Assembly (NCBI RefSeq): GCF_026625745.1
Contig: NZ_CP113061.1
Location: 1,451,501 to 1,515,500, forward strand
Direction of reading: 5' to 3'
Source of the DNA: Asticcacaulis sp. SL142
GTDB lineage: Bacteria > Pseudomonadota > Alphaproteobacteria > Caulobacterales > Caulobacteraceae
Length of the DNA stretch: 64,000 bases
Part shown: positions 1,913 through 8,620 of the stretch, one piece after another
Position numbering within the stretch: the stretch's first letter is position 1
Layout: each line of letters starts with the position of its first letter
Translations under genes and position numbers: made by a program
The notes under the pieces: model-generated
Seen by the model: the letters and a program-made list of their open reading frames with translations, nothing else
What the model was told of the DNA's origin: nothing
The model's database searches: none

Positions 1913-2980
1913 ATGCGCTCATATTCCCACCACGCCTTTTCACGCCGGGCAGCTCTGGCTATGGTTATGTCGACCGCAGCCTTTCCCACGCGTGCCGCCC
2001 CATCAGGCCGGGTGGTGGATGAGATCCTGTCATCCGCGCACTTTGCCCATAACCTGATCGGTATAAGCCCGGACCGCCGCGTAAGCATCTATTTGCCGCC
2101 GTCCTATGGCACTGGCCGTAAGCGCTATCCGGTCATCTATTATCTGCATACCTTTTTTGAAGACCACCGCACCGTCTTTGATCAGCATGGCGTTCAGACG
2201 CTTTTAGAGACCGCTTTTGAGCGCGGTGACATGGGCGAGGCCATTCTGGTCAGCGCTGATTTTTCCACGCCCGTCGTCCATTCGATCTATACCAACTCAT
2301 CGATTACCGGAAATTGGGAAGACTTTCTGGTTCAGGAACTGGTGTCCTATATCGACGCTAATTATCGAACTTTGGCGGAACCGGCGGCACGCGGACTGAC
2401 CGGCGCCCATATGGGTGGTTACGGTGCCATTCGTATCGCGGGCCGTTATGGCGGCGTATTCGGGTCCGTCTACGCCATGCATCCGGTCGGCACAGGCCAC
2501 GGCGTTTATATCATGCAGGGCCGTCCGAACTGGGATCTGCTGGCTCAGGCCAAAGCCTTAAATGACGTCAAGACCGATCCGTTTTCGCAGATATTCACCG
2601 CCATTTATCAGGCCCACCTGCCCAGCCCGGACAAAGGCCCGCTATATATCGATATGCCCGCGCGTCGGGTAAATGGCGAACTGATCATCGACCCGGCTCT
2701 GACCGAACGGCTTACGAACAGCTTTTTCCTGGAACGGCAGGTCGCGTCAGGGGCACAAAACCTTAAAGGCCTGCGCGGCTTTAAGCTCGACTGGGGCCGC
2801 TCCGACAGCAATATCGACCATGTCTATTCCAATCAATCCTACGCCTTAAAACTCAACGAATACGGCATCCCCAACGAGGCCGAGGAATATAACGGCGGCT
2901 GGGGCGATAAGCACTGGGGCCCGCGCGGCCGGTTTGTCAGCGATGTTCTCCCGTTTTTTAAGTCTCACCTTTCGGTGTGA
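1913..2980 (+). CDS. exported esterase-like alpha/beta hydrolase with an altered nucleophile
   Basis: A 355-residue protein of the esterase-D/Fes-like alpha/beta hydrolase group. The first ~28 residues form an export signal (FSRRAALAMVMSTAAFPTRA) with a paired arginine, possibly Tat-type. The fold is recognisable from the VSIYLPPSYG strand, the YPVIYYLHTF segment and a C-terminal H-W region (GDKHWGPRG). The nucleophile elbow, normally G-H-S-M-G-G, reads G-A-H-M-G-G with His166 where serine is expected (codon CAT at 2408-2410). Conventional serine-esterase chemistry therefore looks impossible. It may be a binding protein or use another mechanism. It stands alone, 99 bp after the DMT gene. Confidence 0.75.
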   Translation: MRSYSHHAFSRRAALAMVMSTAAFPTRAAPSGRVVDEILSSAHFAHNLIGISPDRRVSIYLPPSYGTGRKRYPVIYYLHTFFEDHRTVFDQHGVQTLLETAFERGDMGEAILVSADFSTPVVHSIYTNSSITGNWEDFLVQELVSYIDANYRTLAEPAARGLTGAHMGGYGAIRIAGRYGGVFGSVYAMHPVGTGHGVYIMQGRPNWDLLAQAKALNDVKTDPFSQIFTAIYQAHLPSPDKGPLYIDMPARRVNGELIIDPALTERLTNSFFLERQVASGAQNLKGLRGFKLDWGRSDSNIDHVYSNQSYALKLNEYGIPNEAEEYNGGWGDKHWGPRGRFVSDVLPFFKSHLSV

Positions 2981-3023
2981 TGACGTTGATTGACAGCCTC
3001 ACGTCCCCGCGCCATGACAGGCT

Positions 3024-3708
3024 ATGGCAATTTCTCACCCTCTCGACCGGCCGGTATGGACCGCCCTCACCTCTGGCTGGGCGCATCTGGCGCACGGCTA
3101 TGAGCGCGCGTTAAAGCTTGATCCGGCGTATGGGCCGTTTGCGGCCAGCTTTGACGGATCGCCGGAGCCTTTGGCCGGTTTAGTTCCGGGGCCGGACGGG
3201 TTCTGGGTGGTGGAAAGCGGCGCGGTTTCAGCTCCAGAGGGATTCGAGGTCGTTAAGCGCGCCCCGCTACCCGCTACATCAGATGACGGCCATACACATC
3301 ACACCGGGCGGCGAAGATTTTGAGGCGCTTAAGCTAACTCACGCCGATGGCCCGGAGATGCTGGCTCTGGCCCGCCTGACTCAGCCCGGCCCGTTTGCTG
3401 AGCGGACGCACGAACTGTCAGCCTTCATCGGTACCAAGCAGGATGGCCGACTGGTCGCCATGGCCGGTGAGCGTATGAAAATGGACGGCTTTTCCGAGGT
3501 CAGCGGCGTGTGCACCCACCCCGATTTTCGCGGGCGTGGCTATGCGGCGGGGCTGATGCGACTGGTTGCACGGCGTATCCATGCGCGTGGAGACGCAGCG
3601 TTTCTGCACACCTATGCCGATAATCAGGTGGCGATTGATCTCTATAAATCGCTGGGGTTTGAATACCGGGCAGCATTGACGGCGACGGTGTTGAAGCTAA
3701 CAATTTAG
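3024..3708 (+). pseudogene. GNAT acetyltransferase split by a 7-bp tandem duplication
   Basis: Two overlapping frames together make one GNAT-family N-acetyltransferase. The first (from the ATG at 3024) encodes the N-terminal half, ending with FEVVKRAPLP. The second (open through 3708) encodes the acetyl-CoA-binding half with the R-G-R-G-Y-A loop (HPDFRGRGYAAGLM) and a C-terminal SLGFEYRA motif. The junction contains CCGCTAC twice in tandem (3264-3270 and 3271-3277). Deleting one copy restores a continuous reading through VVKRAPLHQMTAIHI, giving a protein of about 225 residues. The second half also has its own ATG at 3283 and could be made separately (141 residues). The natural substrate is unknown. 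Confidence 0.8.
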
Positions 3709-3832
3709 CGATATGATTAAATTGAAATCATCAACGATATAATGCCCATCTGCTACTCGTTTATGCTAACCAGTTTGGAATCAACCAATAAATTAGAAAT
3801 TGGTAATTCTTTCTGACGCGAGGAGTAAGGAC

Positions 3833-4639
3833 GTGGACATTCACGATTTTGAAAACATTGTGCGGACTTCTGGGCTAGTTACGTTCCCTGTAGCAGGTTC
3901 AGGGCTTACCCTTGACTTGTCTCTACATCATGAGAGGCTTTACGCCTGCAAGTTACTCTTGAACGTGCGCTACCCCCAAGCCGACATTGACACAATGCTT
4001 ATAAAAAGATTTGTCCTTCCAAACGACAGCGTTCTGGATGCAGGTGCTAACATAGGCTTTACTTGCCTAGAATTTGTTGCCGCTGGAGCTAGAAAAATTA
4101 CAGCAGTCGAACCAGCTAGCGCGCTTTTCCACCGTCTCTCTACCCTATCTCACGAAAGAATAGTTCCGATAAGTTGCGCAATATCCAGCCAGCGTGGGAT
4201 GCAATCATTAACCTTATCAACAATTCACAACCAAGGGAGCAGCCTAAAGGAAGAAATCAGAGCACTTTTCCCGCAGGTATTCGGAGCCGACCCTGAGGTT
4301 GAGACGGTTCGAGTCACAACTATAGACGACCTGTGTGATGAGCATGGCCCCTTCGATATTTGGAAATTAGATATAGAAGGGGCTGAAGTGGATGCCTTGC
4401 TAGGGGCTAAAAAAACCCTTCAGGAAAACGCACCTAGGGTTATTGTTGCAGAACTGTATGGCCCGTTTTACCAGGCGTTTGCCAATGAAGTCAAAGATAC
4501 TCACCCATTCGCCTATAGAGCTTTAATTAGACATGCAGATTATGCTCTCGCTCTGATAAATCCTGACGACGCCTTAGACGATACCTACTATCAGCATAGT
4601 CCGATGTACGTGTTCTGTCGTAAGGCCACTTCCACCTAA
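3833..4639 (+). CDS. FkbM-family SAM-dependent methyltransferase
   Basis: About 268 residues. The SAM-binding motif VLDAGANIGFTCLEF is followed by a VEPA motif II and by the FkbM signature FDIWKLDIEGAEVDALLGA, then VIVAELYGPF. FkbM enzymes usually O-methylate sugars or secondary metabolites; the acceptor here is unknown. I chose the GTG at 3833 because AGGAG lies 7 nt upstream. A TTG 33 nt earlier is in frame but has no comparable site. Codon use and base composition are visibly AT-richer than in the neighbours, and it sits alone between a broken gene and ettA. Recent acquisition is likely, but no mobility genes are present. Confidence 0.85.
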   Translation: MDIHDFENIVRTSGLVTFPVAGSGLTLDLSLHHERLYACKLLLNVRYPQADIDTMLIKRFVLPNDSVLDAGANIGFTCLEFVAAGARKITAVEPASALFHRLSTLSHERIVPISCAISSQRGMQSLTLSTIHNQGSSLKEEIRALFPQVFGADPEVETVRVTTIDDLCDEHGPFDIWKLDIEGAEVDALLGAKKTLQENAPRVIVAELYGPFYQAFANEVKDTHPFAYRALIRHADYALALINPDDALDDTYYQHSPMYVFCRKATST

Positions 4640-4676
4640 TAGAAGCCTCCCATCTTCAGTCGGGAAGAGAAAAGAA

Positions 4677-4708
4677 AACAGGCGGAGATGTCGCCATCTC
4701 CGCCTGTT
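4677..4708. terminator. hairpin between convergent fkbM-like gene and ettA
   Basis: A perfect 14-bp stem (AACAGGCGGAGATG and its complement) with a TCGC loop, placed between two convergent genes. A-rich sequence on the left side supplies a T-run for leftward (ettA) transcripts, so it may serve both directions. Confidence 0.75.
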
Positions 4709-4795
4709 AAGTAAATCCAGTCCTCGTCACCCGCTCCAAGTTACGGGTGTAGGGGCATTTTAGCGCGCTACCGCTTCGCTGCTTGAGCGCAGGCC

Positions 4796-6463
4796 TTACC
4801 GGGCAAACTTCTGGAACTTGATCCGGTGCGGGATAAGACTATCCGTGCCGAGGCGACGCTTTTTGTCTTCTTCGTACATCTCGAAGTTACCTTCGAACCA
4901 TTCGACGTGTGAATCGCCCTCGAATGCCAGGATGTGAGTCGCCAGACGGTCAAGGAACCAGCGGTCGTGGGAGATGACCACGGCGCAGCCGGCGAACTCT
5001 TCCAGCGCTTCTTCGAGGGCCTGCAAGGTTTCGATATCCAGATCGTTGGTCGGCTCATCGAGCAGGATGACATTGCCGCCGGACGCCAGAGTCTTGGCCA
5101 GGTGGACGCGGTTACGCTCACCACCGGACAGCAGACCGACCTTCTTTTGCTGATCGCCGCCCTTAAAGTTAAAGCCACCGACATAGGCGCGGCTGTTGAT
5201 TTCGCGCTTACCGACGATCATCACATCGGTGCCGCCGGAAATAGCCTGCCAGACGGTGTGGTCGGGGTTGAGGTCATCGCGGCTCTGATCGACATAGGCC
5301 AGCTTGACCGTTTCGCCGAGTTTCAGCGTACCCGCGTCGGGTTGCTCGACACCAGTGATCAGCTTGAACAGGGTCGATTTACCGGCACCGTTCGGGCCGA
5401 TGACGCCCACGATACCGTTGGGCGGCAAGCGGAAGGTCAGGTCCTTGAACAGCAGCTTATCGCCGTATTCTTTCTGAAGGCCGGTGACTTCGAGCACGAG
5501 GTTACCAAGGCGCGGGCCGGGCGGGATCTGGATGGTCGCAAACGACTGCGCCTGACGCGAATTTTCCTGTTCGCGCACCATCTCATCATAGGCCGCCAGA
5601 CGGGCCTTCGACTTGGCCTGACGGGCCTTGGCACCGGAGCGCACCCAGTCCAGTTCCTTGGTGAGGGCGCGTTGACGGGCTTCGGATTCGGACTGTTCCT
5701 GAACCACGCGCTTTTGCTTGGCCTCAAGCCAGCTTGAATAGTTGCCTTCGTGGGGCACACCCTTACCGCGGTCGAGTTCCAGCGTCCACTTGGTGACCTG
5801 ATTGAGGAAGTAACGGTCGTGGGTGACAAGGATCACGCAGCCCGGAAACTGCTCCAGGTGGTGCTGAAGCCAGGCGACCGATTCCGCATCAAGGTGGTTC
5901 GTCGGCTCATCGAGCAGCAGCATGTCAGGCTTGGACAGCAGCAGGCGGGCAAGTGCTACCCGGCGCTTTTCACCGCCGGACAGCTTGGTCACGCCGGAAT
6001 CGTTGGGCGGGCAGCGCAATGCGTCCATCGCCATTTCAATGCGGCTGTCGATATCCCACAGATCGCCAGCGTCGATCTTTTCCTGAAGGGCGTTCATTTC
6101 CTCCATAAGTTCATCGGTGTATTCTTCGCCCATCTGTTCGGCGACTTTGTTGAAGCGATCAAAGATCTTCTTTTCTTCGCACCAGTCGATGACGTTTTCC
6201 CAGACGGTCTTGGACTCATCCAAATGGGGTTCCTGTTGCAGGTAGCCCATCTTGGTGCCGTCGGCGGCCTTGGCCTCACCGGAAAATTCTTTATCGAGAC
6301 CCGCCATGATCTTGAGCAGGGTCGATTTACCCGACCCGTTGACCCCGACCACGCCGATTTTGGCGTCGGAATAGAACGAAAGCCAGATGTTCTCGAAGAT
6401 TTTCTTGCCGCCGGGGAAGTGCTTGGTCAGCCCCTGCATCTGGAAAATATACTGTTGCGCCAT
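4796..6463 (-). CDS. ettA: energy-dependent translational throttle protein EttA
   Basis: An ABC-F ATPase of 555 residues that binds the ribosomal E site and gates the first elongation step according to the ATP/ADP ratio. Both ATPase cassettes are complete: Walker [10 protein letters not shown] and GPNGAGKST, signatures [10 protein letters not shown] and [10 protein letters not shown], Walker [12 protein letters not shown] and [10 protein letters not shown], with the PtIM linker between. It has no membrane segments and ends with the family-typical [19 protein letters not shown] start it at MAQQYIFQM, four codons inside the longest frame. It is divergent from the oxidase gene at 6611. Confidence 0.95.
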
Positions 6464-6610
6464 GTCTATGGGCACCTTTTAAAACTGTTAGGAATGATTG
6501 CGGCGGGTTTAGCCGAGGGGCCGTTAAATCTCAAGGCTTAATCTGCTTGATGCGGCGGGCGTCATGGGGTCTATTGCGCCGCCAGACGGTAAATAAAGCA
6601 GGGACAGGGC

Positions 6611-7741
6611 ATGGATCGACGCAAGATTTTGACAGGGTTTGGGTCTGCGCTTGTGGCGACAGCCCTGCCCCGTACCGGCTATGCACAAGATGCGCGCCAC
6701 CTGATCCCCATCCGCTTTTCGCAAGATGAGATTTTCCGCACGACCGTGTGTCTGCGCCCGTTCAGAGCCGCCGGACCACGGATTGAAGCCGAAGACATGG
6801 GCCGCAAACGGATCGTGCATAACTATGGTCACGGCGGTGCGGGCTGGTCTTTGTCATGGGGATCGGCGGAGGCGGCGGTCACACTGGCTATGGAAAACCG
6901 ACCCAAATCCATCGCCGTGATCGGGGCCGGCGCGATCGGCCTGACCACAGCGCTCATGGCCCAAAGGGCGGGCGCAAGTGTGACCATCTATGCCAAAGAC
7001 CGCTTCCCCGATGTGCGCTCAGCCCGCGCTACTGGCACCTGGTCGCCGGATTCGCGGGTGGCTAAAACCGATGCCGTCGCCGCGGATTTCCCTGAGCGAT
7101 GGGAGCACATGGCACGCCGGTCATGGACTATGCACCAAAGCTATGTCGGACTGGCAGACAACCCCGTCGAGTGGATGGATCACTATTATCTGCGCAACCC
7201 GCAGCCGCCGGTGCCAGACAACCCCACTGACATTGATCCGGGGTTTCTGTATCTGGAGCGGCGCTTAGGCGATATCGTGCCCTCATCGCATCCCCTCGGC
7301 CCCGATCAGCATAGGTTTAATGCCGAGCAGGTCCGTCGCAGAAGCGTGCTGACCTTTAACATCGCGGCGTTGTCGCATCAGTTGACGGAGGATTTTCTGA
7401 TCGCGGGCGGACGGTTCGTGCCCATGACGTTCGATACGCCATCTGACCTTAACCGGCTGAAAGAAAAGGTGATTATCAACTGCACGGGCTACGGCGCGCG
7501 TGCCCTGTTCAAAGACGAGAGCATTACCCCCGTGCGTGGTCAGATTGTGTGGTTGCCGCCGCAAGAGGGCGTCCACTACGGCTTCATGTACAGAGGGGTG
7601 TTCGTGGTCGCCCGTAGGGACGGCATTGTCGTTCAGGCTTTAGGGCCGAATGAGAACTTTGGCTGGAACGATGACAATGAACAGCCCGACATGGCCGCCG
7701 CCCATGCCACCTTAGCCGCCCTTAGCGACGTCTTTAAATAA
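6611..7741 (+). CDS. Tat-type FAD oxidoreductase related to D-amino-acid oxidase, permuted order
   Basis: 376 residues. It starts with a twin-arginine-like signal (MDRRKILTGFGSALVATALP), so it probably acts in the periplasm. The FAD dinucleotide motif AVIGAGAIGLTTALMA sits near residues 99-115. The segment that is C-terminal in ordinary D-amino-acid oxidases (CLRPFRAAGPRIE, then HNYGHGGAGWSLSWG) lies before it, near residues 45-90. The order of conserved blocks is thus rotated relative to canonical DAAO. The middle (TGTWSPDSRV) and the C-terminal region (IINCTGYGARALF, TPVRGQIV) match the DAO fold. The substrate is probably a D-amino acid or related amine, but this is inference. Its stop overlaps the convergent msrC-like gene by 8 bp. 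Confidence 0.8.
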   Translation: MDRRKILTGFGSALVATALPRTGYAQDARHLIPIRFSQDEIFRTTVCLRPFRAAGPRIEAEDMGRKRIVHNYGHGGAGWSLSWGSAEAAVTLAMENRPKSIAVIGAGAIGLTTALMAQRAGASVTIYAKDRFPDVRSARATGTWSPDSRVAKTDAVAADFPERWEHMARRSWTMHQSYVGLADNPVEWMDHYYLRNPQPPVPDNPTDIDPGFLYLERRLGDIVPSSHPLGPDQHRFNAEQVRRRSVLTFNIAALSHQLTEDFLIAGGRFVPMTFDTPSDLNRLKEKVIINCTGYGARALFKDESITPVRGQIVWLPPQEGVHYGFMYRGVFVVARRDGIVVQALGPNENFGWNDDNEQPDMAAAHATLAALSDVFK

Positions 7742-8249
7742 TATTTTTGGCGAACACCGATGCCATAATGGCTTCAAGCCCCGCCTTATCGGTGTCATCA
7801 AACGACGCATGCGCTTGCGAATCGACATCGAAGACCGCGATCAGTTCGCCTGACGCATCAAACACCGGCACCACGATTTCAGAATTGGAGCGCGAATCGC
7901 AGGCAATGTGCCCCGGAAAGGCGTGAACATCGTCGACAATGATCGTTTTACGCTGGGTGGCCGCCGCGCCGCACACGCCGCGCGTGTAAGCTATGCGCAG
8001 GCAGCCCAGCGTGCCCTGATAGGGCCCAATAACCAGTTCGTTGAGCCCTTGCGCCTTTTTCACCTCATCGACCACGTAAAATCCGATCCAGAAATAATAG
8101 TCAAACGCCTGAGCCAACAGACAACTGACGGTCGCCATCTGCGCCGTGACGTTCGTCTCACCGTCAAGCACGGCCTCAATATCACGCTGAACCTCGGCAT
8201 AGATGGCCGCCTTTTCCGCCGCATTTAATCCTGACTCAACCGTCGTCAT
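7734..8249 (-). CDS. msrC: free methionine-(R)-sulfoxide reductase (GAF domain)
   Basis: 171 residues forming a single GAF domain. It reduces free L-methionine-(R)-sulfoxide in the cytoplasm, with thioredoxin as the usual reductant. The three family cysteines are present in LGCLRIAYTRGVCG and HIACDSRSNSEIV, followed by VFDVDS. I start it at MTTVESG; a GGGAG lies 10 nt upstream, and the longer in-frame start would only add a non-conserved decapeptide. It converges on the permuted oxidase gene with an 8-bp overlap. trxB at 51.6 kb encodes the thioredoxin reductase of the recycling chain. Confidence 0.9.
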   Translation of the reverse strand: MTTVESGLNAAEKAAIYAEVQRDIEAVLDGETNVTAQMATVSCLLAQAFDYYFWIGFYVVDEVKKAQGLNELVIGPYQGTLGCLRIAYTRGVCGAAATQRKTIIVDDVHAFPGHIACDSRSNSEIVVPVFDASGELIAVFDVDSQAHASFDDTDKAGLEAIMASVFAKNII

Positions 8250-8620
8250 GGTCACTAAACTCCCGCTCGACTCACACATATCCCCCCATATAAGAATTCG
8301 GATGTCACGCGCCAGTCACACTCAACGGTGAGGGGAATTTCAGGGCCGATTAACCACAAACCCTACGGATTGTTTAAAGCTTTTCTACTTTACCCCTAGC
8401 CTTTTCTCGTGCATTAGAGCATGATTGTTACCGGGTTGATACGTGCGCCGGGGTGGCGTTTTTAAGTGCGCGCAACGATCTTTTGGCTTAGCCGCGACAA
8501 TCCGGCAACGCCTGTTGTAAATGCTTACGTTCGGGGGGAACTTAGCTTGACAGTTTTAGCAATCCTCACGACAAGTTTCGTTAACCATGTTTTAAGCCGA
8601 CGCTGTCGGGGCGATTTTTA
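8250..8620. other. 371-bp divergent intergenic region upstream of the Sel1 operon
   Basis: No coding frame is convincing here. It separates the leftward msrC gene from the rightward envelope operon and must contain both promoters. It is AT-richer than its surroundings. The part nearest the operon holds a TTGACA hexamer (around 8548) and a CtrA-type box, annotated separately. Confidence 0.6.
8581..8595 (+). promoter_or_regulatory. CtrA-type box TTAA-N7-TTAA
   Basis: TTAACCATGTTTTAA matches exactly the spaced half-sites TTAA-N7-TTAA recognised by the cell-cycle regulator CtrA in Caulobacterales. It ends 25 nt before the ATG of the Sel1 lipoprotein gene. A single 8-base match occurs by chance in AT-rich spacers, so regulation is a prediction. 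Confidence 0.5.

Follow-up and report, generated by a model that had tools for sequence, protein, structure and literature searches.

The gene at positions 6611 to 7741 of the window, the whole stretch of 64,000 nucleotides from Asticcacaulis sp. SL142 analysed here, raises the question of whether a relative of D-amino-acid oxidase (DAAO) can carry the conserved blocks of that enzyme in rotated order. An earlier note on this DNA had read the product as a circularly permuted DAAO relative, in which the RPxR/HNYGHGGAG block, C-terminal in DAAO, precedes the FAD motif. The features of the gene are given below, with DASPO for D-aspartate oxidase.

6611 to 7741 including the stop codon, forward strand: gene of the permuted DAAO-type flavoprotein, ATG start, 376 amino acids (open reading frame list, DNA, Pfam)
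6611 to 6688, forward strand: predicted Tat-type signal peptide, residues 1-26 (RRKIL, hydrophobic stretch, GYA-Q; from the sequence, with a putative cleavage site)
6728 to 6898, forward strand: block corresponding to the canonical DAAO C-terminus, residues 40-96 (phmmer and hmmsearch matches to DAAO C-termini; DSSP on the model)
6755 to 6766, forward strand: RPFR, residues 49-52 (within LRPFR, 48-52), R49 being the equivalent of human DAAO Arg283 (8hy5 alignment)
6818 to 6862, forward strand: HNYGHGGAGWSLSWG, residues 70-84, G76 being the Gly313 equivalent (profile alignment with 8hy5)
6899 to 6904, forward strand: permutation junction, residues 97-98, joining the canonical C-terminus to the canonical N-terminus (optimum of 36 rotations)
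6923 to 6940, forward strand: FAD-binding GAGAIG(LTT), GAGAIG being residues 105-110 (sequence)
6902 to 7738, forward strand: residues 98-376, corresponding to canonical DAAO/DASPO from its start up to residue 263-286 (VIA-align)
7601 to 7624, forward strand: FVVARRDG, residues 331-338, with F331 at the Tyr228 position (profile alignment with 1c0i)
7691 to 7738, forward strand: new C-terminus, residues 361-376, a helix and tail that canonically lead into the moved block (DSSP, aligned chain ranges)

The likely flanking genes, at 4796-6475 and 7734-8279, are both on the strand opposite to 6611-7741, so the gene appears to stand alone. The reverse-strand frame at 7734-8279 has an 8-base tail-to-tail overlap with the 3' end of the permuted gene, and its product resembles a GAF-type free methionine sulfoxide reductase. 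A search of the window's own genome found one copy of the permuted gene; the only other match was partial (residues 93-183, E 6.9e-6) and fell on another protein.

The swapped order seen in the earlier note is confirmed by direct reading of the protein. LRPFR at residues 48-52 and HNYGHGGAGWSLSWG at 70-84 are followed by GAGAIG at 105-110, and the canonical order, with the FAD motif N-terminal and RPxR and HNYGHGG C-terminal, is absent. Searched with phmmer against the PDB, the window protein placed residues 40-95 on 319-374 of the fungal DAAO 7ct4 (Rasamsonia; i-E 3.8e-08), while residues 99-133 fell on 24-58 and 284-318 on 209-245, both pieces being weak alone. A family profile built from 59 rows matched the same structure with the N-terminal block on 319-378 (i-E 4.7e-16) and profile positions 112-339 on 22-251 (i-E 4.8e-11). 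The 17 top PDB sequences of this profile were all DAAO or DASPO, and the blocks were swapped alike in all four printed alignments (7ct4, 1c0i, 6rkf and 8hy5). A profile of the N-terminal block only matched nothing in the PDB but the C-termini of DAAO and D-aspartate oxidase, 17 of 17 distinct sequences at E <= 0.01. By these sequence matches, a chance match of the N-terminal block is excluded.

To locate the junction, the family profile was cut at 36 points, rotated and scored against nine canonical bacterial DAAOs. Averaged over these nine, the best single match scored 47.3 bits in native order and peaked at 91.5-91.6 bits with the cut at 97/98, falling to 87.5 bits for a cut at 88 and 86.9 bits for a cut at 108. 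For cuts from 128 to 278 the score levelled off below the peak, at 71-79 bits, since such cuts still bring the second half of the protein and the block together. When the cut was at 97, a single match spanned the full length of four of the nine canonical proteins; in the other five it began only at residue 122-196. The whole-sequence score was almost flat on rotation (111.0 versus 111.9 bits), and in phmmer the rotated single sequence went from E 2.3e-14 to 2e-14 against 7ct4, with 1c0i and some pig mutants slightly worse. HMMER sums separate pieces and total scores therefore barely shift, so that only the single-match score and its span discriminate. Thus the protein holds the same blocks as DAAO in rotated order with a single best junction, and the reading as a circularly permuted DAAO relative is strongly supported by phmmer, the family profile, the N-block profile and the rotation scan together.

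Pfam gives a matching picture. DAO (PF01266) was the sole family above threshold for the window protein (E 2.8e-27; 96.6 bits against a gathering cutoff of 27.9) and matched in two stretches. Residues 101-375 corresponded to profile positions 2-297 of 353, and a canonical bacterial DAAO covered 3-353 of 353. Among the 25 of 106 NCBIfam matches listed, none passed its own threshold.

The rotated order is a property of a family. Related loci were taken as the best 80 of 256 coding stretches from a scan of species genomes, and the block stood before the FAD motif in a single frame in all 80 as well as in the window, with hosts from Pseudomonadota, Acidobacteriota and Bacteroidota. Across all 112 rows gathered (105 distinct scored sequences), 108 showed the swapped order by pattern, with one motif copy each and 33-38 residues between motif and FAD motif. 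Three rows outside the motif pattern (L088, L089, L113) have the block before the FAD motif on direct reading and L111 was unscored; L090, outside the 112 rows, has the same swapped order. No fusion or intermediate carrying the block at both ends turned up among the 112 rows: 108 have a single motif copy, and in four none was scored. The reading of the permutation as an artefact, whether from adjacent gene fragments, misassembly or a chance N-terminal motif, has the shortness of the moved block (about 55 residues) as its sole point. It is contradicted already by this conservation, as well as by the E-values of the phmmer, profile and N-block searches, and is hardly credible.

At E <= 1e-30 the permuted family is uncommon in genome samples. 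It occurred in 14 of 299 sampled genomes of the window's phylum and in 14 of 385 of its class, several genomes being shared between these two samples. It occurred in one of 274 genomes of the class of genome G210, the one being G210 itself, and in two of 296 from the phylum of the genome of locus L060, one of them that very genome. Plasmid records name the relatives 'FAD-dependent oxidoreductase'. A literature search over the titles and opening abstract lines of open-licence papers gave no description of a permuted DAAO. In PMC4699246, a review on the distribution of amino acid oxidases, the terms 'permut' and 'Tat' have 0 occurrences each.

Two loci differ in their gene structure. L066 carries two tandem similar frames of the permuted family (2507-3649 and 3836-4975); its contig is labelled Thalassovita, and in the tree its protein clusters with one from Bacteroidota (support 89), so that the contig is possibly mis-binned. 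On the Mesorhizobium onobrychidis plasmid pOM4 (L143, 2235-3298), the block and the FAD part lie in two short overlapping frames. A natural two-subunit form was considered for it and rejected; the break falls inside the FAD motif, and the locus is therefore read as probably a disrupted gene.

An AlphaFold2 model was built from the 59-row alignment, which holds the window protein and 58 loci. Thinning at 80% identity had left 59 loci, from which L008 was removed for want of a placeable start. The model had a pLDDT of 90.7 and a pTM of 0.88. By DSSP, the N-terminal block forms strands at 43-52, 57-63 and 66-72 and a helix at 82-96, and beta-1 of the FAD fold (100-104) comes directly after it. 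Of the top chains from Foldseek, the 17 entries with the highest scores were all DAAO or DASPO. VIA-align gave Z scores of 18.2-21.0 and rmsd values of 2.7-3.5 over the DAAO/DASPO entries listed (n=17), among them human DASPO 6rkf (Z 21.0, rmsd 2.7, 253 residues aligned) and pig DAAO 1kif (Z 19.7, rmsd 2.7, 248 aligned); the other DAO proteins listed scored below these, at Z 14.6-15.9. The model thus supports the claimed DAAO topology for residues 97-376, which follow DAAO/DASPO in sequential order from its start up to residue 263-286. The matches of both programs are sequential only, and the place of the N-terminal block in space is one that we infer. Predicted alone (residues 28-97, 40 of the 59 rows), the block gave a weak model (pLDDT 72.7) with no Foldseek match at E <= 0.001; with such a weak model this search is uninformative.

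The origin of the permutation was examined in a quick, unrooted tree of 33 of the 108 permuted rows, rotated back and thinned at 62% identity, together with nine canonical rows, all from plasmids. Support is given as SH-aLRT only, without bootstrap; the rows left out include L029, L142, L143 and L151, a partial Nostoc protein. Permuted and canonical rows fell on opposite sides of one branch with support 99. Block order changed state once on the tree, and none of 500 shuffles gave as low a count. The tree is consistent with a single permutation event. Several independent permutations could be argued from a second clade within the permuted side (support 99; L123, L096, L141 Bradyrhizobium and L144 Nonomuraea in the tree), in which the branch is long and the motif-to-FAD spacing is 37 in the five rows, against 33 in most of clade 1. 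They are quite improbable, with all permuted rows on one side of the well-supported branch.

Clade 2 has a gene context of its own. The clade is found on rhizobial plasmids and in Nonomuraea; the permuted gene lies at 2252-3304 in L141, at 2255-3316 in L142 (Rhizobium, 61.9% identical to L141) and at about 2120-3340 in L144. In Bradyrhizobium, Rhizobium, Mesorhizobium and Nonomuraea, tblastn found a gene for a thiamine-pyrophosphate (TPP) enzyme 15-130 bases 3' of it, which Pfam on L141 and L144 and the record annotation support as well. A gene for an FAD-binding oxidoreductase lies 5' of the permuted gene in Bradyrhizobium and Rhizobium, of the berberine-bridge type by Pfam in Bradyrhizobium. 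These loci look like a pathway from an amino acid to a 2-oxo acid and on to decarboxylation. Near L123 (genome G159), there is a weak TPP-enzyme-like match on the other strand.

The twin-arginine signal that had been proposed for the window protein was borne out at the level of the motif. The protein starts with the Tat-like MDRRKILTGFGSALVATALPRTGYAQ, and the genome encodes TatC (E 8.3e-69); on the motif, Tat export is predicted. By regular expression, RR followed by a hydrophobic stretch was present in 76 of 81 rows (the 80 loci and the window), and some of the five rows without it may reflect the start codon chosen. A lipobox-like cysteine was found as well in 49 of the 81 rows; the window protein has no lipobox. 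Among 28 further rows, which are stop-to-stop frames so that some passes may be spurious, 21 had a Tat-like motif, four were not scorable and three failed (L096, L101 and L139, the last failing the pattern though its start reads MKRRQLL). In clade 2, L123 has a Tat signal, whereas L141, L142, L144 and L096 have none; therefore permutation and export are not strictly tied.

Yeast DAAO Tyr223 is presumably the equivalent of Tyr228, and through 1c0i it maps to column 331 of the family alignment. This column is F in the window protein and, over the 59 rows, S in 22, Y in 14, N in 13 and F in 4. In phmmer with human 6kbp the Tyr228 stretch is set a few residues differently from the 1c0i profile alignment, so Tyr228 is mapped with less certainty than Arg283, although its assignment is likely. 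At column 327, which may correspond to the lid residue Tyr224, 29 of 59 rows have Y, the window included, and 20 have T. PMC6279847 describes Arg283 and Tyr228 of DAAO as holding the substrate carboxylate and Gly313 its amino group. The Arg283 equivalent R49 and the Gly313 equivalent G76, both mapped via 8hy5 with a chain numbering offset of 23, are invariant in 59 of 59 rows, as are H70-G76, G78 and S80-G84; G105, G107 and G110 of the FAD motif are invariant in the same alignment. R335 is nearly invariant in the permuted family, and D337 and G338 are invariant. Invariant residues that differ from the aligned DAAOs are S80 and L81 and, against 1c0i, Y323 and D337. As Tyr228 is mostly replaced, substrate binding would differ from that of DAAO. 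Judged from the alignments, the active site looks DAAO-like and not DAAO-identical.

Since the window gene has no same-strand partner, its function is read from its relatives. A conserved operon was not found across the family, the largest neighbour clusters comprising 12, 11 and 7 of 81 loci. In L023, L029, L037 and L139, a gene for a small cytochrome c (PF13442, signal-like start) lies 3' at up to 17 bases or overlaps the stop codon. These are three of the 80 genome loci and a Kozakia plasmid; L108 and L110 repeat L023 and L029. In the tree, L139, L037 and L023 group together (support 99), and the pairing was seen in this one subclade, where the adjoining gene suggests a dehydrogenase. Some DAO proteins hand electrons to respiratory acceptors. 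On the Kozakia baliensis plasmid pKB14400_3 (L139, 1-3804), genes for an S9 peptidase, the permuted DAAO and the cytochrome c lie on the same strand. On a Niveispirillum plasmid (L138), a frame at 3405-4124 for a DsbD_2 protein, a membrane protein of the cytochrome c biogenesis type, lies about 80 bases downstream of the permuted gene.

RidA proteins hydrolyse imines from amino-acid-oxidising enzymes, and a RidA-family gene with a signal-like N-terminus lies 3' of the permuted gene in three Larkinella loci, all of one genus. A relative of the PF00144 hydrolases (beta-lactamase/DD-peptidase-like) lies 3' within about 220 bases in five of ten Dyella loci, by Pfam on L028 and by tblastn for the others. 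Genes resembling S9 peptidases adjoin in L073, L078, L079 and L139, weakly in L100; Met-zincin genes adjoin in L046, L058 and L074. In all, a peptidase- or serine-hydrolase-like gene adjoins in three Dyadobacter loci, the five Dyella loci, Kozakia, and L046, L058 and L074. Together, the neighbours suggest that amino acids or related amines are oxidised in the envelope and that, in at least one subclade, cytochrome c takes up the electrons.

Therefore, we propose that the window gene belongs to a naturally permuted branch of DAAO/DASPO, and that its product is an exported FAD enzyme that oxidises an amino acid or amine (probability about 0.75). About 55 canonical C-terminal residues, with the Arg283 strand, the HNYGHGG loop and the last helix, would form the new N-terminus, from which a short linker leads on to beta-1 of the FAD fold, and the chain would now end at the helix that precedes the Arg283 strand. 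The three-dimensional fold and the FAD site are predicted to be as usual, with the N-terminal block presumably in its canonical place and FAD presumably bound. The Tat-like signal, combined with a lipobox in many relatives, predicts folding and FAD loading in the cytoplasm and then action in the periplasm. Most likely, FAD would take two electrons at C-alpha of an amino acid or amine, with an imine as product. A dedicated cytochrome c probably receives these electrons in one subclade; for the window protein and the remaining relatives, O2 and a respiratory carrier are the candidate acceptors.

The earlier note's reading, a folded, FAD-loaded periplasmic oxidase of permuted topology, is supported in part, its topology being largely borne out. 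The Arg283 and Gly313 equivalents and the FAD motif are kept, but the Tyr228 equivalent is not conserved and a cytochrome c gene adjoins in one subclade, so that neither an oxidase nor a D-amino acid as substrate is established. A true H2O2-forming periplasmic D-amino-acid oxidase, permuted and exported and acting on D-amino acids from peptidoglycan, would fit the nearest solved relatives, DAAO and DASPO, and the two invariant equivalents. The PF00144-related gene in Dyella would fit it too, although this family is broad and implies no D-substrate, and the other five Dyella loci lack such a gene there. With Tyr228 not conserved and the cytochrome c gene in one subclade, we consider such an oxidase unlikely. 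The substrate might instead be something other than a free amino acid, such as a modified amine, a peptide end, or an N-methyl or cyclic imino acid, with the block order real all the same. The loss of Tyr228 and the invariant S80, L81, Y323 and D337 speak for this, as do the peptidase-like neighbours in several lineages (S9, Met-zincin) and the structural neighbours below DAAO, which include glycine oxidase, sarcosine oxidase and opine dehydrogenase. The neighbours vary between lineages, however, and the invariant Arg283 equivalent argues for a carboxylate ligand, so that this substrate class is possible though doubtful.

Apart from these readings, the proposed permuted, exported amino acid- or amine-oxidising FAD enzyme can be extended to the whole family. 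One ancient permutation might have shifted the chain ends of DAAO away from where the FAD fold begins and given rise to a large bacterial envelope family. In the window's clade, its members would mostly be Tat-exported and often lipid-anchored respiratory amino-acid dehydrogenases; at least one subclade would use cytochrome c as acceptor, and in another RidA would remove the imine. Clade 2 would feed 2-oxo acids to a cytoplasmic TPP-dependent decarboxylase. This extension is speculative, and we hold it to be rather improbable in all its parts.

DAAO is a textbook and industrial flavoenzyme, and its structure is, according to PMC6279847, well conserved during evolution. A widespread natural permuted branch would show that the DAAO fold tolerates its substrate-binding strand at the N-terminus. 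The family would be a natural scaffold with new chain ends, of which Pfam sees an incomplete DAO domain, and it hints that bacteria have an unassigned activity in the envelope that oxidises amino acids or amines.

Compared with known systems, the window protein shares the sequence blocks, the FAD motif and the Arg283 and Gly313 equivalents with DAAO (EC 1.4.3.3; pig 1kif, human 2du8, Rasamsonia 7ct4), and the fold of residues 97-376 at Z 18.4-19.7. D-aspartate oxidase (EC 1.4.3.1) gave the best structural Z (human 6rkf, 21.0; Cryptococcus humicola 9vpf, 18.2), and its C-terminus matches the N-terminal block; the window protein differs from it by the rotated order and the Tat-like signal. Glycine oxidase ThiO, sarcosine oxidase and flavin opine dehydrogenase share the DAO fold at lower Z, about 15, and none of them occurs in the set of 17 PDB sequences that the N-terminal block matched. 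The nearest relatives in sequence and structure are DAAO and DASPO, not other DAO proteins, and the window protein is thus a member of the DAAO/DASPO family. The canonical bacterial DAAOs from plasmids (L140, L145-L150, L152 and L153) are of the same family, in canonical order and on the other side of the tree; their FAD motif is near the N-terminus, and eight of the nine have an HNYGHGG-type motif near the end, the pattern not being found in L153. Unlike DAAO, the permuted family has rotated blocks, a Tat-like signal, often a lipobox, and a Tyr228 position that is not conserved.
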